NCBI RefSeq assembly: GCF_023336755.1 | Contig: NZ_JALZWP010000001.1 | Coordinates: 79,959-143,958, forward strand | DNA: 64,000 bases | Direction of reading: 5' to 3' | Source of the DNA: Roseinatronobacter domitianus | GTDB taxonomy: Bacteria > Pseudomonadota > Alphaproteobacteria > Rhodobacterales > Rhodobacteraceae | Part shown: positions 37,250 to 48,674 of the stretch, in pieces | How the letters are laid out: each line of letters opens with the position of its first letter | How positions within the stretch are numbered: the first letter of the stretch is position 1 | The notes under the pieces: generated by a model | The model's input: the letters and a program-made list of their open reading frames with translations, nothing else | What the model was told of the DNA's origin: nothing | The model's database searches: none | Made by a program: the position numbers and the translations under genes

Positions 37250-38194
37250 TCAGGCAAGACAGCTTTGCAGCCGAGAGATAACATCAGACATGCTGATGTT
37301 TTGGCGTGCCACGTAATCTGCGTTCGGAATGAAATGCACAGCCTGCCTGAACCCCTTGGCGCGCGCAATCGTGACATAATTTTGGTTCATCCGGGCCTCT
37401 GTGCCAAATGGCTCGGGCACGAAGAGATCTACTTGCAACCCATCGGCGTCTTTCAGAAGAATCAAGCTGTGAAGGGCAGAGCCAATAGGTCCAGCGATTC
37501 TTTCGGAGCGTGCAAGAACCTCCAGTTGTTTGGGAACGGAGAGCGTTTCTGGCGCGATGATCGTCCAACCCTCGGCGCGCAATGTGTCTTCAAACTCTGA
37601 CATTCCGGGAACGGGGCGCCGCGTTTGGTTTCGGCGAGATAGCCAAGTCTTTTTGCCGCGTTCTGGACGCCAGGGCACCTTTGCGAGAAAGCTCTGCTGT
37701 GCTTGAGTGAACTCATGCTGAATAACGTAGCCGCTTGGCGCGATCATAAGCCTGGAAACGCTGCACGGTTCAGTCACCAAAATATGTGGGCCTTTGACGC
37801 CAAGTAAATCGAGCAACTGAGACTGCCAGATTTGGAAGCCCTGCTGCGCAACATCGCAGCGTGCGGACCAGACGACCGGATAATCGGGAAAGTCATCCCG
37901 GCAATAAAGTCGGCCTAAGCTTTCAAGCAGGAAATGACCATATCGGTGGTCCAGCATTCCAGCAAAAAAGCCCTTTTCAATGGCGTGTTTTGTGTCTGCC
38001 GCCAGTGCGGGACGCTGGGCTTCGTAGCGGTTTCCGGTCTGATCCAGGCGCGTCAGGTTTGCTGATGTCAAGAACTGTCCGTCACGCGTCTGAACGCCCG
38101 TGCTCATATTTTCGGGCGCCCAGTCGATGAGTTTTGTCGGGTGAACGATTGCATCCGATATGCATTCGATCCCCAAGCTCGAAGTTGCTGGCAT
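37250..38194 (-). CDS. Glycosyltransferase family 61-like protein
   Basis: This 314-aa protein carries the DUF563/GT61 pattern: HRYGHFLLESLGRLY (about 83-97) in the N-terminal half and ERIAGPIGSALHSLILLKDAD in the C-terminal half. Such enzymes act on surface polysaccharides. It has no membrane helix or signal peptide. Its base composition is visibly less GC-rich than that of moaA and cmk on either side, and it is read opposite to both, so it is probably a transferred single gene. The substrate is unknown. Confidence 0.7.
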   Translation of the reverse strand: MPATSSLGIECISDAIVHPTKLIDWAPENMSTGVQTRDGQFLTSANLTRLDQTGNRYEAQRPALAADTKHAIEKGFFAGMLDHRYGHFLLESLGRLYCRDDFPDYPVVWSARCDVAQQGFQIWQSQLLDLLGVKGPHILVTEPCSVSRLMIAPSGYVIQHEFTQAQQSFLAKVPWRPERGKKTWLSRRNQTRRPVPGMSEFEDTLRAEGWTIIAPETLSVPKQLEVLARSERIAGPIGSALHSLILLKDADGLQVDLFVPEPFGTEARMNQNYVTIARAKGFRQAVHFIPNADYVARQNISMSDVISRLQSCLA

Positions 38195-39648: not shown

Positions 39649-40428
39649 ATGCTGTCCTATCAACACGGGTTTCACGCGGGCAATCTGGCCGATGTCCATA
39701 AACACGCTTTGCTGGCGTGGTTGCTGGATTACCTGACCGCCAAGGACAAGCCGCTGTCCTATATCGAAACGCATGCCGGGCGCGGGCTGTATGACCTTGG
39801 CGCGCCGGAAGCGTTGAAGACCGGCGAAGCGGCGGCGGGCATTTCCTGCGCCGAAAGCCTATTCGCCCTCGACCATCCTTATATGCGTGCGCTGGCCGCG
39901 ACGCGCGCTGCGCATGGGCCAAATGCCTATCCCGGTTCACCCCTGATTGCCGCGCATTGCTTGCGCGCAGGGTTTGATCGGATCACGCTGGCAGAGCTGC
40001 ACCCCGCCGAGCATGACGCGCTGGGCCGCGCCATGGCCGGGCAGGGCGCGCGGGTTTATAAACGCGACGGGCTGGACATGGCGCAGGCCATGTGCCCACC
40101 CACGCCCCGGCGCGGGGTGCTGATGGTGGACCCGTCCTACGAGGTGAAGGCCGATTACGTTACGCTGCCCCGCGCGCTGGGCCAGATCGCGCGCAAATGG
40201 AATGTGGGCGTGCTGGTGCTGTGGTTTCCCATCCTGCGCGATGGCCCGCATGCCAGCCTGACCGCCGCTTTGCGTGCCGAGATGCCCGAAATCGCCTGTT
40301 TTGAGGCGCGCTTCAAACCCGCGCGCCCCGGCCACCGGATGATTGGGTCCGGCATGGCAGTGCTGCGCGCGCCCTGGGGCATGGCGGCAGAGGCCGCGCG
40401 GATTGCCGAAATGCTGGAAAACCTGTAG
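39649..40428 (+). CDS. rlmJ: 23S rRNA (adenine-2030-N6)-methyltransferase
   Basis: This 259-aa SAM methyltransferase matches RlmJ: the N-terminal MLSYQHGFHAGNLADVHKHA is diagnostic, THAGRGLYDL follows, and the catalytic DPSY motif is in LMVDPSYEVKADY. It methylates A2030 of 23S rRNA. The ATG at 39649 lies one base after the upstream stop. A 251-bp spacer to rpsA follows. Confidence 0.94.
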   Translation: MLSYQHGFHAGNLADVHKHALLAWLLDYLTAKDKPLSYIETHAGRGLYDLGAPEALKTGEAAAGISCAESLFALDHPYMRALAATRAAHGPNAYPGSPLIAAHCLRAGFDRITLAELHPAEHDALGRAMAGQGARVYKRDGLDMAQAMCPPTPRRGVLMVDPSYEVKADYVTLPRALGQIARKWNVGVLVLWFPILRDGPHASLTAALRAEMPEIACFEARFKPARPGHRMIGSGMAVLRAPWGMAAEAARIAEMLENL

Positions 40429-40679
40429 TCCACGCTCGCTCGTTGCGCCGAATTCGCGCTCGAACCCTTGCCATAGCGGCTCTGACCCCTTATGGACACG
40501 CGCAATCAGGGGGCTTGTCATGCCTTTTGCGCAACTGGAACAGGGTCGGGCCAATGCCCAGACCCGCATTTGTGTTTTTTGTTCCCCGCGCGGCGTGTCG
40601 GCACGCCCTTCTGGTGCCAACCCAAGACCGGCGGAGTCAACCGTCTGGCCAGAAACATGAACAAAGGAACCTGATCTGA
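40429..40679 (+). other. rpsA upstream region (promoter/leader)
   Basis: This 251-bp spacer has no credible gene. TTGCCA-N18-TATGGA near 40477 could be a promoter, leaving a leader of about 180 nt rich in GC pairs. A strong AAGGAAC site precedes the rpsA ATG. S1 controls its own translation in other bacteria, so a structured leader is plausible but unproven. Confidence 0.35.
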
Positions 40680-42359
40680 ATGTGCGCTAAAGCAACCATG
40701 GAAGACTTCGAGGCAATGCTCAACGAGAGCCTCGAAATGGACACGCCCTCTGAGGGCAGTGTCGTGACCGGCAAGGTCATCGCAATCGAGGCTGGACAAG
40801 CCATCATCGACGTCGGCTACAAAATGGAAGGCCGTGTCGATCTGAAAGAATTCGCAAATCCGGGTGAAGCCCCCTCTGTCGCCGTGGGCGATGAGGTCGA
40901 GGTCTTCCTGGAGCGCGTCGAAAACTCGCGCGGGGAAGCCGTTGTCAGCCGTGACAAGGCCCGCCGCGAAGCCGCATGGGACAAGCTGGAAAAAGCCTAT
41001 GCCGACGAAGCCCGCGTCGAAGGCGCGATCTTTGGCCGCGTCAAGGGTGGCTTTACCGTCGATCTGGGCGGTGCCGTGGCGTTCCTGCCCGGCTCTCAGG
41101 TCGATGTGCGCCCCGTGCGCGATGCTGGCCCGCTGATGGGTCTGAAGCAGCCTTTCCAGATTTTGAAAATGGACCGTCGCCGCGGCAATATCGTCGTATC
41201 GCGCCGCGCCATTCTGGAAGAAAGCCGCGCCGAACAGCGCGCCGAAGTCATCGCCAAACTGGCCGAAGGTCAGACCGTCGATGGTGTGGTCAAGAACATC
41301 ACCGAATACGGTGCGTTTGTGGACCTTGGCGGCGTCGATGGCCTGCTGCACGTCACCGACATGGCATGGCGCCGGGTCAACCACCCGTCCGAAGTTGTCA
41401 CCATCGGTGAAACGATCAAGGTGCAGGTCATCAAGATCAACAAGGAAACCCACCGCATTTCGCTTGGTATCAAGCAACTGCAAGCCGATCCGTGGGATTC
41501 GGTCGAGCGTGACTACCCGCTGGACAGCGTCCATAAAGGCCGCGTGACCAACATCACCGATTACGGCGCGTTCGTCGAACTGGAAGCCGGTGTCGAAGGT
41601 CTTGTTCATGTCTCGGAAATGAGCTGGACCAAGAAGAACGTGCACCCCGGCAAGATCGTCTCCACCTCGCAGGAAGTGGAAGTCATGGTGCTGGAGATCG
41701 ACAGCGCCAAGCGCCGTGTTTCGCTGGGCCTGAAACAGACTCTGCGCAACCCGTGGGAGCAGTTCGCCGAAAGCTACCCGACCGGCACCCAGATCGAGGG
41801 CGAGGTCAAGAACATCACCGAATTCGGTCTGTTCGTGGGTCTGGACGGCGATATCGACGGCATGGTGCACCTGTCCGACCTAAGCTGGGATCAGCGCGGC
41901 GAGGATGCCATTCAGGAATACCGCAAGGGCGATATCGTTCAGGCGGTTGTCTCTGAAGTGGATGTCGAGAAAGAGCGGATTTCGCTGTCGATCAAGGCAC
42001 TGGCCAATGACAACTTCTCGGAAGCTGTCGAAGGCGTGAAGCGTGGTTCGATCGTGACCTGCGAAGTCACCTCGATCGAAGATGGCGGCATCGAGGTCAT
42101 CTACAACGACATGAAAGCCTTCATCCGCCGCTCGGATCTGGCACGCGACCGGGCTGACCAGCGCCCAGAGCGTTTCCAGGTTGGTGACAAGGTCGATGCG
42201 CGTGTCACCTCGGTGGACGCAAAGACCCGCCGCCTTGGCCTGTCGATCAAGGCCCGCGAGATCGCGGAAGAGAAAGAAGCCGTGGAACAGTTCGGATCGT
42301 CGGATGCAGGCGCAAGCCTGGGCGACATTCTGGGCGCCGCGCTCAAAGACCGCGACTGA
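40680..42359 (+). CDS. rpsA: 30S ribosomal protein S1
   Basis: This 559-aa protein has six S1 RNA-binding domains in tandem, recognisable from repeats of the [19 protein letters not shown] and HRISLGIKQ kind. It binds mRNA on the 30S subunit and starts translation of structured messages. The N-terminus ([14 protein letters not shown]) and the C-terminus ([19 protein letters not shown]) are complete. The last 45 codons and the terminator are duplicated at 45336-45526. Confidence 0.97.
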
Positions 42360-42416
42360 TCCTTCGCGGATTGGTTTGGGAAAGAGAAAGGCCGCAGCGA
42401 AAGCTGCGGCCTTTTT
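42226..42416 (+). repeat. Direct repeat, left copy: rpsA 3' end plus terminator
   Basis: This 191-bp segment matches 45336-45526 at an exact offset of 3110 bp with no gaps and 12 mismatches. After the first codons, all coding differences are silent. It is the functional rpsA end. Confidence 0.93.
42387..42416 (+). terminator. Intrinsic terminator of rpsA
   Basis: A 12-bp stem (42387-42398 with 42403-42414) with a GAAA tetraloop ends in a run of T residues, 28 bp past the rpsA stop. Confidence 0.92.
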
Positions 42417-42566
42417 CGGTTCGATAACCGATACCGGGACAGCAGTCAGCCCAAACTTCCCAACTTTCTGTTTTGCCGCGAATGTCGGGGGTGGTGGCGA
42501 ACGCAATGTCGGCATCAATCTGATGCAAAGGGCCGGTTCACTTTTTGTGCCTATAGCTCTGCGTGC

Positions 42567-43448
42567 CTACAGCAACCCGTCAGGCATCTTCTGTTCCGCT
42601 GCCGTATTGGCGCGCCGAAAATAGAGGGTGGTGAGCGTCGCGATGATCACAATGAACAGTGAATAAAGGACGGGCACGGCGTTGATCGCCTGCTGCTCGG
42701 CGCCCGAAAAGGTGAAGGCGATGATGGCGATGGCCAATGGACCGTTCTGGATCCCCGTCTCTAGGCCCACGGTGCGCGCATTGCGAGGGTGCAGTTTCAG
42801 AACCTTTGCGAACAGATAGCCAACCGCAATCCCGATGGCGCCGATCGCGATGGTGGCCACATATGTCGCCCAGTTGGTTTCCAGCAAAAAGCTGAAGTTG
42901 CGTGGAATCCAGGACACCACCAAGAACACGATGAAGAAGACACCCAACATGGACCCCATAAACTCGATGACTGCGCCAATGTTGGCATTGAATTTGCGCA
43001 GGACCATGCCGATACCCACAGGCACCAGCAGCAGAATCAACGTAATGATGATGTTCTCGCGCGGGATATCCACGTCCAATGCGCCTGCATAAAGGATCAA
43101 AACGATAGGGATCATCACCACGCCTGCGACGGTCGATGTCACAGTCATCAATACCGAAAGCGCCAGATTACCCTTTGAAAAATAGGTAAAAATATTGGAC
43201 GTTGTGCCGCCGGGCATACAGGACATTATCAGGATGCCGATTTTGATCGGGTCCGATACGGGCAGCAACAGCGCCAGTAGAAATCCGATCAATGGCATAA
43301 ACCCGTATTGCGACACCACGCCAATAATCAGCCCGTAAGGGCGTTTAAGAGCCAGCATGAAATCGCGCGGTGTAAGGGACGCGCCCATGCCCAGCATGAT
43401 CACAAAGATCATGAGCGCGAGGATTGCCTGTTCGAGTGGTCCGACCAT
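42567..43448 (-). CDS. Bile acid:sodium symporter (BASS) family transporter
   Basis: This 293-aa membrane protein has about nine hydrophobic helices, the GASLTPRDF start and the sodium-site segments MSCMPGGTTSNIFTYFSKGN and GLETGIQNGPLAIAI typical of BASS proteins. These carry organic anions such as bile acids, pyruvate or pantoate with Na+. It is 28 bp downstream of an acyl-CoA ligase and probably co-transcribed, suggesting uptake of a carboxylic acid that is then activated. Both lie between the direct repeats of the rpsA end. Confidence 0.88.
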   Translation of the reverse strand: MVGPLEQAILALMIFVIMLGMGASLTPRDFMLALKRPYGLIIGVVSQYGFMPLIGFLLALLLPVSDPIKIGILIMSCMPGGTTSNIFTYFSKGNLALSVLMTVTSTVAGVVMIPIVLILYAGALDVDIPRENIIITLILLLVPVGIGMVLRKFNANIGAVIEFMGSMLGVFFIVFLVVSWIPRNFSFLLETNWATYVATIAIGAIGIAVGYLFAKVLKLHPRNARTVGLETGIQNGPLAIAIIAFTFSGAEQQAINAVPVLYSLFIVIIATLTTLYFRRANTAAEQKMPDGLL

Positions 43449-43476
43449 TTTGAAAATCTACCTGTAATCAGTGACC

Positions 43477-45201
43477 TTAGGACGCATCGCGCAAGGCGGT
43501 TTCTTCGGCGCGCAAATCTTTGCGCAGGATCTTACCGACATTCGATTTCGGCAGATCGGCACGCAATTCGACCGTCTTCGGGACTTTGTACGCGGCAAGA
43601 TGTTCCTTGCAGAAGGCACGAATGTCCGCCCCGGTCAGCGTCTGATCGCGCAGCACGACAAAGGCCTTCACTGCCTCGCCCGATGTGCCATCGGGCACGC
43701 CGATCACCGCCGCCTCAAGGATACCGGGGTGGCGCGCAAGGCAGTCTTCAATCTCATTGGGGTAGACGTTAAAGCCGGATACCAGCACCATGTCTTTCTT
43801 ACGATCCACAATGGAAAAATAACCGTCCCCGTCCATTACCCCGATGTCGCCCGTCAGCAGCCAGTCACCGCGCATGGTCTTGGCCGTTTCCTCGGGTTTG
43901 TTCCAATACCCCTTCATGATCTGCGGCCCACGCGCGGCCAGCTCTCCGGCCTCGCCGCGCGGCACCTCTTTGCCGTCCTGATCCAGACATGACAATTCGG
44001 TCGACGGCACAGGGATACCGATGGAATTCGGGCGGGTTTTGCCAAGTGGGTTAAAGGTGATCACAGGCGAGGTTTCCGTCAGCCCATACCCTTCCAACAC
44101 AGGCTTTCCAGTGACCTCTTTCCAACACTCTGCCACAGAACTTTGCAGCGCCATACCGCCGGCAGAGGCAAATTTGAGGTGTTTTGGGGGGGTGTCCAGA
44201 AACCAGGTTTCATTGCTGAGCCCGTTGAACAGCGTATTCACACCGCTCATCCACGTGATCGGATAATTTTCGAATGCGCGTTTGAGGTTGGATAATGGCC
44301 GGGGATTGGGGATCAGGACGTTGCGTGCGCCAAGGTAATAGAACCCCAGCAGATTCACGGTGAACGCAAAGATATGATACATCGGCAGGGCCGTCAGCGC
44401 GACCTCTCGACCTTTTTCAACGCCATCACTAATCATCTCCATGGTTTGTTCCATGTTTATCATCAGGTTGCCATGGGACAGCATTGCACCCTTCGCGACG
44501 CCCGTGGTGCCACCGGTATATTGCAGGCAGGCGATGTCATCGGGCGACAGAACGCTGCTATATCCTTCAACGGTAATGCTCTTGCGCTGGCTTATCTGAC
44601 GTCCCGCCTCGATCGCCTCGGGCAGCCGGATATGCGGCAAGGTGATCGGGGCCAGCGTGCGGTCCCAGTGTTTTTGCACAAGCCGCACAATGCCGCGTGG
44701 AATGGCGGGGAAAAACTCTGCCACTTGAGTGACGATAATATTGGGGATCTGATGCCCCTTGAGGGCTTGGGTCAGCTTGTCGGCAAAAATGTCCACGACA
44801 ATCAGGGCTTGTGGTTGGGAATCCGCAAACTGATGCGCCATTTCCTCGGCCGTATAAAGCGGGTTGACGTTCACGATGACGCAGCCCGCTTTCAGGACTG
44901 CAAAGGCTGCCACTGGAAAAGACAGACCGTTGGGCATCTGTATGGCAACGCGGTCGCCTTGCGTGAGGCCAACGGCTTCACGCAGATAGACTGCAAGGCC
45001 GTCGGACATCTCGTCGACTTGCTTGAAGGTAAGGGAGCCGTTTATGCCGTTGGGCAAGCAGGCCGTAAACGCTGTTTTATCACTATACAGGTGCGATACT
45101 GCGCGGACCATGTCGCCTATGGTGCGGAACTGTGCGGCCTCTATCCTGGAGCGCATGGACGGGCCGTAATACGCGGTCCACGGACGGTCTGAATGGCTCA
45201 T
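43477..45201 (-). CDS. AMP-dependent long-chain acyl-CoA ligase
   Basis: This 574-aa ANL-superfamily enzyme activates a fatty or related carboxylic acid to its CoA thioester. The AMP motif YTGGTTGVAKGA is near residue 220, GYGLTETSPVI in the middle, and the hinge DRKKDMVLVSGFNVYPNEIE with the catalytic lysine region near the C-terminus (SNVGKILRKDLR). The start is the ATG at 45201, with GGGAGGG just upstream; an ATG at 45219 is weaker. The nearest relatives are FadD-type ligases. Its substrate could be the cargo of the adjacent BASS transporter. Confidence 0.9.
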   Translation of the reverse strand: MSHSDRPWTAYYGPSMRSRIEAAQFRTIGDMVRAVSHLYSDKTAFTACLPNGINGSLTFKQVDEMSDGLAVYLREAVGLTQGDRVAIQMPNGLSFPVAAFAVLKAGCVIVNVNPLYTAEEMAHQFADSQPQALIVVDIFADKLTQALKGHQIPNIIVTQVAEFFPAIPRGIVRLVQKHWDRTLAPITLPHIRLPEAIEAGRQISQRKSITVEGYSSVLSPDDIACLQYTGGTTGVAKGAMLSHGNLMINMEQTMEMISDGVEKGREVALTALPMYHIFAFTVNLLGFYYLGARNVLIPNPRPLSNLKRAFENYPITWMSGVNTLFNGLSNETWFLDTPPKHLKFASAGGMALQSSVAECWKEVTGKPVLEGYGLTETSPVITFNPLGKTRPNSIGIPVPSTELSCLDQDGKEVPRGEAGELAARGPQIMKGYWNKPEETAKTMRGDWLLTGDIGVMDGDGYFSIVDRKKDMVLVSGFNVYPNEIEDCLARHPGILEAAVIGVPDGTSGEAVKAFVVLRDQTLTGADIRAFCKEHLAAYKVPKTVELRADLPKSNVGKILRKDLRAEETALRDAS

Positions 45202-45212
45202 AATCCCTCCCA

Positions 45213-45260
45213 AGATCATCGAGCCGCCCTCAAGGCTCGATAGGACTATACATATGATCT
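45213..45260. promoter_or_regulatory. Nested inverted repeats upstream of the acyl-CoA ligase
   Basis: An inner perfect palindrome ATCGAGCC/GGCTCGAT (45218-45225, 45234-45241) lies inside outer arms AGATCAT/ATGATCT (45213-45219, 45254-45260). It lies in the ligase promoter zone and looks like an operator, possibly for a TetR- or GntR-type acyl-CoA regulator; no regulator gene is adjacent. Confidence 0.45.
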
Positions 45261-45335
45261 TTTGTGATGCGACTCTGAATCGACGGCAAATTTGCGATGG
45301 CAGAAAGACTGGCAGGCCCGAATTTCAGCACCCAG

Positions 45336-45469
45336 CCCGCCGCCTTGATCTGTCGATCAAGGCGCGCGAGATCGCGGAGGAGAAAGAAGCCGTGGAACAG
45401 TTCGGATCGTCGGACGCAGGCGCAAGCCTGGGCGACATCCTGGGCGCCGCGCTCAAGGACCGCGACTGA
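45336..45469 (+). pseudogene. rpsA 3'-end fragment
   Basis: The last 44 codons of an S1 gene, encoding [19 protein letters not shown] through the terminal ALKDRD, are intact and end in TGA. Nothing upstream is homologous to rpsA, and the in-frame upstream sequence is unrelated, so this is a fragment and not a gene. Protein identity with the true C-terminus is complete over the last 40 residues while several third codon positions differ. That pattern is expected if one copy came from a related strain. Confidence 0.9.
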
Positions 45470-45526
45470 TCCTTCGCGGATCGGTTCGGGAAAGAGAGAG
45501 GCCGCAGCGGATGCTGCGGCCTTTTT
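45336..45526 (+). repeat. Direct repeat, right copy: rpsA 3' relic plus terminator
   Basis: This segment is about 94% identical to 42226-42416 in the same orientation. The two copies bracket the BASS transporter and the acyl-CoA ligase, 3110 bp apart. Confidence 0.93.
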
Positions 45527-45527
45527 T
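45499..45527 (+). terminator. Terminator of the rpsA fragment copy
   Basis: A 10-bp stem (45499-45508 with 45513-45522), loop GGAT, precedes six T residues. It is the copy of the rpsA terminator with a changed loop and an intact stem. Confidence 0.85.
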
Positions 45528-45612
45528 GCTAAAGACCCTGCCAGCTACGATTAAGAAAACTCAGATATTGTATTTTTTGGTTCCCATTTTAAGCTTTTAA
45601 GCTCGCTCACCA

Positions 45613-46557
45613 TTATCTCTTATATGAACCCATCCAAAAATAGTTTCCGCCAGGCGGTGGGGCTATTTCAGCCCAATGCTCCTCGCCGGCTACTCTCCAA
45701 AGCAAAGTTCTCAATGGTGCTCCTGTTACAGCTATCGGCCCTTTCACTGACGTTGGAGAAATAAAAAGTGGTGTGAAAGCGGGAGTTGCGGCGCCTAAAA
45801 TTCTTGCTATTGGATCCACTTTTTTGGTAGAATATTTTTCTGAATAAGTTACTTGTGTTTTCCTCTCAGATATTCTGGTGATTGTCGCAACTGCATTGCC
45901 GCCGATTGTTGGAGTTTTCTCTGAAAAAGCCTGTAGAGTGGCAACTAGAACATCTACAATTCTTAGCGAACTCAAACCTGCCTCGCGAATTTCCCGTATT
46001 TGACAGCAAGCTTTCTTCCATAATTCTGGATATTTTATATCCCATCCGCCTGATGCGTTAAGAACATACCCATTTGGAGGCGCCCGCTTTGGCCTTAGCC
46101 TCTTATTAAACACGAATTCACCTTGCTTGTTGGTCTTAATGATCAGAAAATCTGGTTTTAGAGACCCCCGGAAAAGTGTAAGTCCAGAGGTAATAATCTC
46201 GACGCCATGTTCTCTTAAAATTCTGTTTTTTGATGCTTCATGCATGATTGCTCTCACAATCGCGTTCCGCACTTGATTTGGTGATTGTAACAGCGAGATT
46301 TGTTCTTGTCTCTGGGTTGATAGCACAACTCTTGGATCCAAGCGCCTACGCAAAATCTTTGACGCAAGCCAAAAGTCGGTTTGAATGCCTTTGATTTCAG
46401 CAAGTCCAGTGAATGAAATATGTAAGAATCCAGATCGCGTCGTGCAAAAAATTGACTTGTTAAATAGTTCGCTGTGGACTCTATATTGTGATGTTACTCT
46501 CCTATCACTTACAGAAATAACTGTATCGTGGTCTATGTAGTCAAAAATAATTGTCAA
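45613..46557 (-). CDS. Orphan AT-rich gene, possible Ntn-hydrolase (proteasome/HslV-like) protein
   Basis: This 314-aa soluble protein starts MTIIFDYIDHDTVISVSDRR. A threonine directly after the initiator Met, followed by a D-x-x-V-T turn and then LHISFTGLAEIKG, resembles the start of HslV/Anbu/20S proteasome subunits, where Thr1 is the nucleophile. The C-terminal half (about 180-314) matches nothing I recognise. The start is TTG with AAGGA nine bases upstream. The gene is far richer in A and T than its neighbours, with a different codon use, so it was probably acquired. It lies just beyond the rpsA relic. The Ntn call is an inference from a short stretch. Confidence 0.6.
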   Translation of the reverse strand: MTIIFDYIDHDTVISVSDRRVTSQYRVHSELFNKSIFCTTRSGFLHISFTGLAEIKGIQTDFWLASKILRRRLDPRVVLSTQRQEQISLLQSPNQVRNAIVRAIMHEASKNRILREHGVEIITSGLTLFRGSLKPDFLIIKTNKQGEFVFNKRLRPKRAPPNGYVLNASGGWDIKYPELWKKACCQIREIREAGLSSLRIVDVLVATLQAFSEKTPTIGGNAVATITRISERKTQVTYSEKYSTKKVDPIARILGAATPAFTPLFISPTSVKGPIAVTGAPLRTLLWRVAGEEHWAEIAPPPGGNYFWMGSYKR

Positions 46558-46622
46558 GAAAGGTAATCCTTATCGATTACTACAGCGACCTTTGCGTTTT
46601 TGAATGCGGTGCTGACCGCTTG

Positions 46623-47087
46623 TCACGCCGCCTTCGTCGCGGCTTCGCTTGACAAGATCTCGATGAATTTCGCAGGCTCGTCATTAGCGCGCAATTTCTC
46701 GCAGATCGCGGGGTTGCGCAGGGTGCGCGACACAAATGCCAGTGCTTTCAGGTGGTTCACCCCGGCATCGCGCGGGGCAAACAGCGCGAAGACCAGATCG
46801 ACCGGGCTTTTGTCGACCGACCCGTAATCGAGCGGGCGGTCCAGTTTCAGGAACACACCCAGCACCCGGTCCACCCCGTCCAGTCGGGCATGCGGCAGGG
46901 CCACGCCGTGGCCCACACCGGTTGGCCCAAGGCTCTCGCGTTCCTGCAAGGCTTCGACCACGGCGCTGCCAGACAGGCCGTAAACCGATTGCGCCATATC
47001 GCCCAATGTCTGGAACAGGCGTTTCTTGCTGGTCGCCGATCCGATGACACGTAGGGCATCTGCATCCAGAAGCTCTGACATCTGCAT
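46623..47087 (-). CDS. ptsN: PTS IIA-like nitrogen regulatory protein
   Basis: This 154-aa EIIA-Ntr protein has its phosphorylated histidine at His66 (GHGVALPHARL). It takes phosphate from NPr and links carbon, nitrogen and potassium status. A GGAGA site precedes the ATG at 47087. It is followed downstream by the AT-rich orphan gene and preceded by hpf in the usual lpt-hpf-ptsN order of alphaproteobacteria. Confidence 0.94.
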   Translation of the reverse strand: MQMSELLDADALRVIGSATSKKRLFQTLGDMAQSVYGLSGSAVVEALQERESLGPTGVGHGVALPHARLDGVDRVLGVFLKLDRPLDYGSVDKSPVDLVFALFAPRDAGVNHLKALAFVSRTLRNPAICEKLRANDEPAKFIEILSSEAATKAA

Positions 47088-47168
47088 AGGCTGTCTCCGA
47101 TCGGGTATAATGAAATGCCGCGCCGGGGCGCAAGGCCCATGGCGCGGCGGGTCATTCAGGGTGGGGTG

Positions 47169-47738
47169 TTATTGCTGTGGGTCGATCCAGCCGACATTGC
47201 CATCCTCGCGGCGATACACCACGTTCAGGCCGCCATGGCGTTCGTTGCGAAACACCAGCACGGGCGCATGGGCAAGTTCCATCTGCATCACGGCTTCCCC
47301 GGCAGAGAAGGAGGGGATCTTGGTCTCCATCTCGGCAATAATCATTGGTTGCAACGTGTCGGGTTCTTCCGCCGACTCGTCATCGCTTGAGGCCAGCACG
47401 TACGATGATCCACCGCCGAACTCAACCGGGGTCGTGCGGTCGCGGTGATGGTCTTTCAAGCGGCGCTTGTAGCGGCGCAACTGCTTGTCCAGCTTTTCAC
47501 GGCATGATTCGAAGGCGGCGTAGATGTCATGTGCCTGCCCGCGTGCCTGTGCCGTCAGCCCGGTGGTCAGGTGCAGCGTGGCTTCGCAAACCATGTTATG
47601 CGCATCGCGGGAAAACACCACCAGGGCCTCTGTCGGGCGCTGCTGATATTTTTCGACCAGCTCGCCAAACTCGGCCTTCACATGGGTTTGCAGTGCATCA
47701 CCAATGTCGATTTGTTTGCCGCTGATCTGATAGCGCAT
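47169..47738 (-). CDS. hpf: Ribosome hibernation promoting factor, long form
   Basis: This 189-aa protein has an N-terminal S30AE domain (MRYQISGKQIDIGDALQTHV to about 105) and a C-terminal dimerisation domain (about 130-189, GEAVMQMELAHAPVLVFRNE). Long HPF joins two 70S ribosomes into inactive 100S dimers. The ATG at 47738 has AAGGAATGG upstream. The gene sits 81 bp before ptsN. Confidence 0.94.
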   Translation of the reverse strand: MRYQISGKQIDIGDALQTHVKAEFGELVEKYQQRPTEALVVFSRDAHNMVCEATLHLTTGLTAQARGQAHDIYAAFESCREKLDKQLRRYKRRLKDHHRDRTTPVEFGGGSSYVLASSDDESAEEPDTLQPMIIAEMETKIPSFSAGEAVMQMELAHAPVLVFRNERHGGLNVVYRREDGNVGWIDPQQ

Positions 47739-47912
47739 GGGCCATTCCTTCCTGATTATCGGGGTGCGCGGAGGCCGCCCCGCTTGGGTCATACTGCTCT
47801 GTCGCGGCGCGCGGTGCGGCGAGGGGTGCCGTAAGCGCGTCGCATCAGTTCAGGTATTTGGCGACAGATCGGGGGGCTTTGTCAACGGATCGCTGAGGGC
47901 AGGGTGAAAAAC

Positions 47913-48674
47913 TCAATCAGAGGTATCAAAGCTGTCCAGCCGGAAATCGCGCCCAAGATAGACCCGGCGCACATCCTCATCGGCGACCACTTCGGCGGGG
48001 GTGCCCGCACGCAGCACGCAGCCATCATGCAGAATATAAGCGCGGTCTACGATGGCGAGGGTTTCGCGCACATTGTGATCGGTAATCAGCACGCCCAGCC
48101 CGCGTGTCTTCAGATCGGCCACAAGCGTTCGGATTTCGCCCACTGCGATCGGGTCCACCCCGGCGAAAGGTTCGTCCAGCAGCACGTAGCGCGGATTGGC
48201 GGCAAGGGCGCGGGCAATCTCTACCCGGCGACGTTCGCCGCCCGACAGCGCCAGCGCGGGCGCGTCGCGCAGATGCGTGATAGAGAATTCGGCCAGCAAC
48301 TGGTCCAGCGCGGTCAGCCGTTCCGCCTTGTCTTTCAGGCGGATTTCGAGCACCGACAGGATGTTCTGCGCCACGCTCAGGCCGCGAAAGATGCTCATTT
48401 CCTGCGGCAAATAACCAAGACCCATCAGCGCACGCCGAAATAGCGGCAGCCCGGTGGCATTCTCTCCGTTCAGGTGGACGGTGCCGCCTTCGTGTTTCAC
48501 GATACCGGCAATGCAATAAAAACAGGTGGTCTTGCCACAACCATTTGGTCCCAGCAGCGCCACCACCTCGCCCGGAGAGACATGCAGCGAGATGTCGCGC
48601 AGGATCATCCGTTTGCCATAGCTTTTCTGAAGCTGCGACACGTCCAGCGCGTCTTGGCCGTTTTGCGTTGTCAT
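47913..48674 (-). CDS. lptB: LPS export ABC transporter ATP-binding protein
   Basis: This 253-aa ABC ATPase has Walker A GPNGCGKTT, signature LSGGERRRVEIARAL and Walker B VLLDEPFAGVDP. LptB powers extraction of lipopolysaccharide with LptF and LptG and delivers it to the LptC-LptA bridge encoded immediately upstream. It starts 6 bp after lptA. The 174 bp to hpf contain no clear terminator. Confidence 0.95.
   Translation of the reverse strand: MTTQNGQDALDVSQLQKSYGKRMILRDISLHVSPGEVVALLGPNGCGKTTCFYCIAGIVKHEGGTVHLNGENATGLPLFRRALMGLGYLPQEMSIFRGLSVAQNILSVLEIRLKDKAERLTALDQLLAEFSITHLRDAPALALSGGERRRVEIARALAANPRYVLLDEPFAGVDPIAVGEIRTLVADLKTRGLGVLITDHNVRETLAIVDRAYILHDGCVLRAGTPAEVVADEDVRRVYLGRDFRLDSFDTSD

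Follow-up and report, generated by a model that had tools for sequence, protein, structure and literature searches.

Genes and Features Downstream of rpsA

The window, that is, the whole 64,000-nt stretch of Roseinatronobacter domitianus DNA that was analysed, contains an intact rpsA gene followed on the opposite strand by genes of a sodium symporter and an acyl-CoA ligase. Beyond these lie a second, truncated rpsA end with its own terminator, an AT-rich orphan ORF and a ptsN-like gene (Table 1). The transporter and ligase genes fill the interval between the two rpsA ends, and no integrase, transposase or other mobile gene was recognised there. Note that the score of the symporter against TIGR00841 was below the cut-off, and all 25 NCBIfam matches of the ligase among those listed also fall below their cut-offs.

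Table 1. Features of the rpsA locus (positions are those of the window).
Feature	Position	Strand	Evidence or remark
rpsA, 30S ribosomal protein S1, intact, 559 aa	40680..42359	+	ORF; S1 domains by Pfam (E 3.7e-99)
Copy 1 of the repeat	42226..42416	+	last codons of rpsA (44 whole codons including stop) and terminator 1
Terminator 1	42390..42416	+	9-bp GC stem, GAAA loop, T-run; read from the sequence, folded
Left spacer (150 bp)	42417..42566		matches only this genome within the genus
BASS/SBF-family sodium symporter, 293 aa	42567..43448	-	Pfam SBF, E 6.1e-36
AMP-binding acyl-CoA ligase, 580 aa, FadD/PRK07059-like	43477..45219	-	Pfam
Right spacer (97 bp)	45239..45335		homology to the best outside module stops at 45238
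Copy 2 of the repeat	45336..45526	+	truncated rpsA end and terminator 2; does not form a gene
Perfect 10-bp palindrome, 4-nt loop	45341..45364		in copy 2; imperfect counterpart in copy 1
Terminator 2	45500..45527	+	stem as in terminator 1, GGAT loop
AT-rich orphan ORF, 314 aa	45613..46557	-	no match in other genomes of the genus
ptsN-like gene (PTS EIIA-2)	46623..47087	-	Pfam, E 3.8e-27; synteny; right edge of the conserved flank

Among 37 genomes of the genus, a query of positions 42,411–42,566 matched only the genome under study (G000), and the same was true of the stretch 45,527–46,622. The orphan ORF in the latter had no Pfam or NCBIfam match and no match to phages and plasmids at E 1e-3. 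Past ptsN, ORFs resembling hpf and lpt genes were seen, as judged by eye from the ORF list. An Rfam scan of positions 40,000–48,000 gave no match at the gathering score, and an RNA element in the spacers or terminators was rejected on this basis.

The hairpin of terminator 1 folds on both strands (fragment energies of -29.7 and -25.0 kcal/mol), as does that of terminator 2, whose minus-strand form was picked up by a consensus terminator scan and faces transcripts arriving from the ptsN side. The site is thus convergent: terminator 1 faces rpsA and the symporter gene, and terminator 2 faces ptsN and the orphan ORF. On the plus strand, the T-runs of both pair with bases preceding the stem. The consensus scan found 6 sites against 5.8 in shuffled sequences, which is no excess over chance, and did not list the plus-strand hairpins of either terminator; the function of both is therefore inferred from their position.

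Properties of the Direct Repeat

A gap-free direct repeat of 191 bp with 12 mismatches and a spacing of 3110 bp had been reported in the first-pass annotation, and a repeat search recovered exactly the same two copies (94% identity). By script, 7 of the 12 mismatches were assigned to the coding part and 5 to the part past the stop codon. The second copy within the genome was found with E 1.6e-79, which excludes a chance origin of the repeat. The terminator stem is intact in both copies and only the loop is changed, as had been described. The last 40 residues of rpsA had been taken as identical in the two copies; this holds for the 39 residues before the stop codon (521–559), while codon 520 is GGC (Gly) in copy 1 and GAT (Asp) in copy 2. 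It is through this GAT, together with the G at position 45,364, that the palindrome of copy 2 is perfect. The inverted pairs I2 and I13 fall in the two copies and arise from the palindrome that each of them contains. A transposon insertion was rejected, as there is no transposase among the two genes and these inverted pairs derive from palindromes within the copies.

The coding differences over the identical residues had been described as silent. When only the five silent differences are counted (5/5), P is 0.001–0.003; it becomes 0.005–0.012 with codon 520 as one event and 0.014–0.031 with codon 520 as two. If the bases are polarised by the related genomes G028, G036 and G024, three of the five silent differences lie on the live copy 1. 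As evidence, these differences are thus weaker than they seem, because part of them may have arisen on copy 1, where silence is expected anyway, and it is moderate at most for divergence under coding constraint.

On the plus strand of 82 stretches (1.08 Mb), only three direct repeats had a length of at least 100 bp together with at least 85% identity. Two of them are rpsA ends (in the genome under study and in G325, a genome that entered the set on account of its repeat) and the third (L048) lies outside rpsA.

Comparison with Other Genomes of the Genus

All comparison sets contained one genome per species. The 191-bp query had matches in 28 of the 36 congeners, mostly over the coding part; the remaining 8 had no match and are uninformative. 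A second match longer than 34 bp was absent from all 28 matched congeners. In G036 and G024, ptsN comes 0.3–0.9 kb after rpsA and its terminator, and neither the symporter nor the ligase gene was found in the stretch examined. These two genomes therefore present the empty site, with one rpsA end and without the gene pair, that had been anticipated in the first-pass annotation, and both outer flanks of the locus are syntenic with theirs. In G028, ptsN was not found within 10 kb past rpsA. The identity of the right flank to the window was 80–85% for G036, 81–85% for G024 and 79–80% for G028; on this basis, G036 and G024 were considered nearer relatives than G028.

Origin of the Gene Pair and of the rpsA Ends

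For the gene pair, 251 relatives were found, of which the best 80 were examined. The nearest ligases in this set belong to an Octadecabacter metagenome-assembled genome (90% identity), two Tateyamaria (84%) and Sulfitobacter (82%). A tree of 109 ligases, built by a quick method without bootstrap and including 28 congener rows (the congener L055 was left out by a stop-codon filter), joined the ligase of the window with that of Octadecabacter (SH-aLRT 96) and with those of Tateyamaria (SH-aLRT 99). In the same tree, 27 congeners form a distant clade and G028 is placed elsewhere; the G028 ligase locus corresponds to the record of Roseibaca sp. Y0-43. Judging from these relationships of sequence, the transporter–ligase pair is foreign and of roseobacter ancestry.

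The symporter gene lies directly downstream of the ligase gene on the same strand in 77 of the 80 loci, and among the other three, two matches run to about 100 bp from the end of the available stretch. The two genes therefore move as a unit. At the DNA level, the similarity to the best outside locus stops at the gene edges (42,568–45,238). The rpsA gene was found in none of the 80 module loci within the flanks examined, and the symporter was found in none of the 81 rpsA loci, some of which are short; 3 of these 81 hold distant ligases (28–34% identity) located away from rpsA. The donor order rpsA–transporter–ligase was thus found in no genome (81 rpsA loci and 80 module loci, one genome per species). 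If recircularisation created the junction of rpsA with the module, this junction would not have to be present in any genome.

Several other sources of the module were considered and rejected. For a plasmid origin, all 69 matching plasmid records showed less than 60% identity (E limit 1e-100). Direct repeats (at least 50 bp and 80% identity) in the 80 module loci, some of them shortened by contig ends, do not flank the module, which speaks against a module with flanking repeats of its own. A former module site elsewhere in the genome under study was also rejected: the flanks of the G028 module map to contigs C9, C6 and C19 and not to one site.

A phylogeny of the two rpsA ends had been expected to reveal the native one. 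When a tree of 31 rows was built from the last 134 coding bases, the two copies were placed within the genus, but as sisters (98/85; the bootstrap is rough), and past the stop codon they are, by eye, most alike each other and G028. The rpsA end is therefore not from the group that the gene pair resembles. Thus, of the earlier proposal that foreign DNA had brought its own rpsA end, the foreign gene pair is upheld by the ligase tree, but an rpsA end from the same foreign group is not.

The two copies were also compared at single positions. At 42,305, 42,329 and 42,347, copy 2 agrees with G028, G036 and G024 and copy 1 differs; at 42,269, copy 1 agrees with these genomes and copy 2 differs, and position 42,254 is mixed. 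This pattern fits what a crossover between 42,269 and 42,305 would leave, as read from 4–5 third-position sites only. However, G018 and G020 carry the base of copy 1 at 42,305, 42,329 and 42,347, which makes the polarity unsure, and the terminator loop points the other way: the GAAA of copy 1 is that of G036 and G024, whereas the GGAT of copy 2 is that of the more distant G028. Private changes of the genome under study were denser in the last 420 bp of rpsA (16/375 compared with 22/1139; P 0.013 in a one-sided test, which was one of 8). The import of a long rpsA tract, for which this density would speak, was not relied on.

A Second Case in the Family

The last 56 residues of rpsA were searched in 395 genomes of the family, 390 of which matched. 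Two rpsA-end matches were found in four genomes: the one under study, G172, G325 and G369. In G172, the second match is a contig-edge overlap of 99 identical bases, and in G369 it belongs to a 1471-bp stretch that is 100% identical on two contigs near a masked or N run (a duplication or the assembly); neither was accepted as a third case. Convincing cases thus number 2 among the 395 genomes.

The second case, G325 (locus L211), belongs to another genus. Its gene order is rpsA, terminator, a DUF2817 gene on the minus strand, a decayed rpsA end, terminator and ihfB. The displaced rpsA end is 118 bp long with 89% identity, a 1-nt gap and an in-frame TAG, and no integrase or other mobile gene was recognised in the insert. 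A congener of G325, G474, has the empty site, with rpsA leading directly to ihfB. From copy 2 through ihfB, G325 is collinear with G474, terminator included. Its intact gene is identical to that of G474 for 161 bp (-225 to -65), in genes that elsewhere show 92 differences over 1375 positions, and then shows 9 differences in the last 64 bases and carries a terminator other than that of G474. Since copy 2 and its flank match G474 and the intact end differs, the intact gene of G325 has the imported end and the displaced copy is the resident one. At its left edge, the displaced copy reads GCCTG before TCGATCAAGG, which is close to rpsA of other species (e.g., L279), whereas the resident gene has GGCGTC at this position. 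Such an edge suits a crossover that would have occurred just to its right, although only a few bases are concerned.

Counted back from the end of rpsA, the displaced copies have their left edges at 134 nt in one genus and at ~122 nt in the other, a difference of ~12 nt. A search of 81 rpsA loci with the last 160 bp of the rpsA gene of each (E 0.01) revealed no decayed second rpsA end beyond that of G325; 7 of these loci reach only 0.6–6.6 kb beyond rpsA. The other matches were short and weak, and many of them fell on further S1 domains of the gene itself.

Possible Mechanism and Alternatives

As the most likely mechanism, we consider that DNA was added at the 3' end of rpsA through a single homologous crossover, and we give this about an even chance of being correct. 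The incoming molecule would probably have been a recircularised fragment of ~3.1 kb that carried the rpsA end and terminator of a close relative joined to the transporter–ligase pair of roseobacter ancestry. One crossover inside the common end would have inserted the whole molecule. The rpsA gene would have stayed intact because the incoming end completed it, the resident end would have been pushed 3110 bp downstream as copy 2, and each of the two convergent neighbours would have been left with a terminator hairpin. The implied circles would measure 3110 bp for this locus and 1305 bp for that of G325. The anchor sequence is directly repeated on both sides of the insert, as single-crossover insertion requires, and a single crossover is the simplest account of both loci. 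Integration by recombination, as suggested in the first-pass annotation, is supported, and G325, whose intact gene has an imported end, offers a parallel.

A comparable outcome is known from an experiment with lacZ of E. coli (PMC3240628). In that study, 56 of 60 clones were the duplication product, with duplications of 109–950 bp in 14 sequenced clones, and were read as a single crossover with a circle lacking part of the homologous end; the circle probably arose by linearisation, partial degradation and recircularisation. In both systems the insert is accompanied by the duplication of part of the homologous end (191 bp here), but an experimental plasmid was used there, whereas the present insert is natural and its copies are diverged alleles.

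The DNA may have arrived in a gene transfer agent (GTA) particle or by transformation or conjugation; neither a circle nor its vehicle could be traced. The genome contains two loci with GTA_TIM proteins (GTA-type tail), each with further phage-tail genes, and GTA transfer is a possible vehicle, by inference only. Rhodobacter GTA particles carry ~4.5 kb of DNA, which is described as integrated by allelic replacement (PMC9690577); addition would therefore be an unusual outcome of GTA transfer.

Homology-facilitated illegitimate recombination (HFIR) of a linear fragment could also account for such a locus. Here the rpsA end of the fragment would have paired with the resident gene, and its other end would have been attached by a non-homologous joint, near 45,335/45,336, at an upstream point of the resident rpsA end, so that this end was duplicated and copy 2 would be wholly resident. 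This requires no circle, is known in transformable bacteria (PMC3240628) and has been invoked for displaced effector genes in T6SS clusters of Vibrio cholerae (PMC5361080). However, HFIR generally leads to deletion (the remaining 4 lacZ clones were HFIR with deletions; PMC3240628), whereas the locus shows a duplication, and copy 2 of G325 has a left edge that departs from the resident type, by a few bases only. We consider this explanation rather unlikely. The first-pass annotation had offered a duplication old enough to drift as its second option. In this case the rpsA end would have been duplicated locally and the gene pair inserted between the copies, with silent changes on copy 1 and free drift of the dead copy 2. 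The sister position of the copies agrees with it, and so do the three silent differences that the polarity by G028, G036 and G024 assigns to copy 1, as a live copy predicts. Were copy 2 a dead copy of equal age, though, more changes would be expected than it shows (~2 events over 132 bp, compared with 3–4 over ~37 silent sites of copy 1; a hand estimate gives P of roughly 0.02–0.1, dependent on the unsure polarity). Moreover, at least 5 of the 7 coding changes are silent (P 0.01–0.03 under no constraint), and G325, where copy 1 is the foreign one, is left unexplained. Local duplication thus appears improbable.

Some genomic islands integrate into the 3' ends of genes and restore them. A site-specific island whose integrase was lost or acted in trans would suit the architecture, in which an intact target with an imported end is accompanied by the displaced original end at the far side, and also the left edges of the displaced copies, which differ by only ~12 nt between the two genera. 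Unlike such islands, the present insert consists of two cargo genes only, no integrase or other mobile gene was recognised in either insert, and there are only two convincing cases in 395 genomes, so that we see little likelihood of site-specific integration. Finally, the joining of two loci by the assembler, which had been named as a possible refutation, would be conceivable in a draft genome of 55 contigs, but the copies differ at 12 sites and the longest exact run common to both is only 35 bp, which makes a false join unlikely. In addition, both outer flanks follow the order of G036 and G024, and an artefact is therefore very improbable.

Significance of the Locus

The single-crossover insertion proposed here would be an event of a kind already known. 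In the model published for the V. cholerae T6SS clusters, a module is likewise anchored on a conserved stretch and older gene parts are shifted downstream, but effector–immunity genes are exchanged there (PMC5361080); here the anchor is a housekeeping gene whose last 39 residues were restored unchanged. The closest parallel is L211 of G325, with the same order of rpsA, terminator, minus-strand cargo, displaced rpsA end, terminator and resident next gene; it differs in a more decayed copy 2, in terminators clearly of two origins and in an unrelated cargo.

In a literature search, rpsA was not found described as an integration site of genomic islands. It is a speculative idea, with a small chance of being right, that small integrase-free circles recurrently use the 3' end of rpsA for docking in the family. 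If it were true, circles bearing one or two cargo genes together with the end of rpsA and its terminator would have been inserted repeatedly, and the tail of rpsA would be a safe landing pad, because the crossover always leaves a working rpsA and two terminators. The locus can be read as a natural record of how a small foreign gene pair entered the chromosome without a recognisable mobile-element gene, in which homology to the tail of an essential gene would anchor the DNA and the incoming tail would repair the gene. The parallel in G325 makes this idea testable across displaced ends of housekeeping genes.

Distribution of the ligase and symporter

A search at a threshold of E 1e-150 showed that a ligase of the module kind is present in 29 of the 36 congeners of R. 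domitianus, at other loci. The identity of these proteins to the window ligase was 53–56%, and that of the G028 ligase was 71%. Neither the ligase nor the symporter was found in the congeners G036 and G024 at the thresholds used. At locus L121, a gene resembling by eye the glycosyltransferase gene upstream of rpsA lies close to the module.

Displaced gene ends and neighboring features

Two neighboring base differences complete a perfect palindrome in the dead rpsA copy, the kind of pattern expected from template switching at a quasi-palindrome. No match to the AT-rich ORF beyond this copy was found among the congeners, nor in phage or plasmid records; its start is, in our impression, reminiscent of Ntn-hydrolase-like proteins.

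A second case of a displaced rpsA end, flanking a DUF2817 gene, was observed in G325, a genome of another genus. Pairwise comparison of its rpsA with that of G474 revealed 161 bp without a difference, the remainder being ~7% divergent. Two contigs of genome G369 share a stretch of 1471 bp at 100% identity, which includes an rpsA end and a LysE-like gene; a run of unread bases and an IS110-like transposase are located nearby (gene names assigned by eye). In a Nereida genome, a direct repeat of 179 bp (82%, spacing 2757 bp) could be another displaced gene end.

GTA-like clusters

The R. domitianus genome carries two predicted GTA-like clusters, at separate loci.

Table. Positions of the features discussed.
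Feature	Location	Position	Remarks
Glycosyltransferase-61 family gene	window	37250-38194	~2.5 kb upstream of rpsA
Palindrome	window	45341-45364	
ORF, 314 aa	window	45613-46557	AT-rich
Displaced rpsA end and DUF2817 gene, G325	L211	3262-4683	
Identical stretch, G369	L212	1666-3136	
Identical stretch, G369	L213	6466-7936	
Nereida repeat	L135	16895-17072	
Nereida repeat	L135	19652-19830	
GTA-like cluster (GTA_TIM tail protein plus other phage-tail genes)	L311	4232-8248	contig C18
GTA-like cluster (GTA_TIM tail protein plus other phage-tail genes)	L312	4288-8217	contig C10
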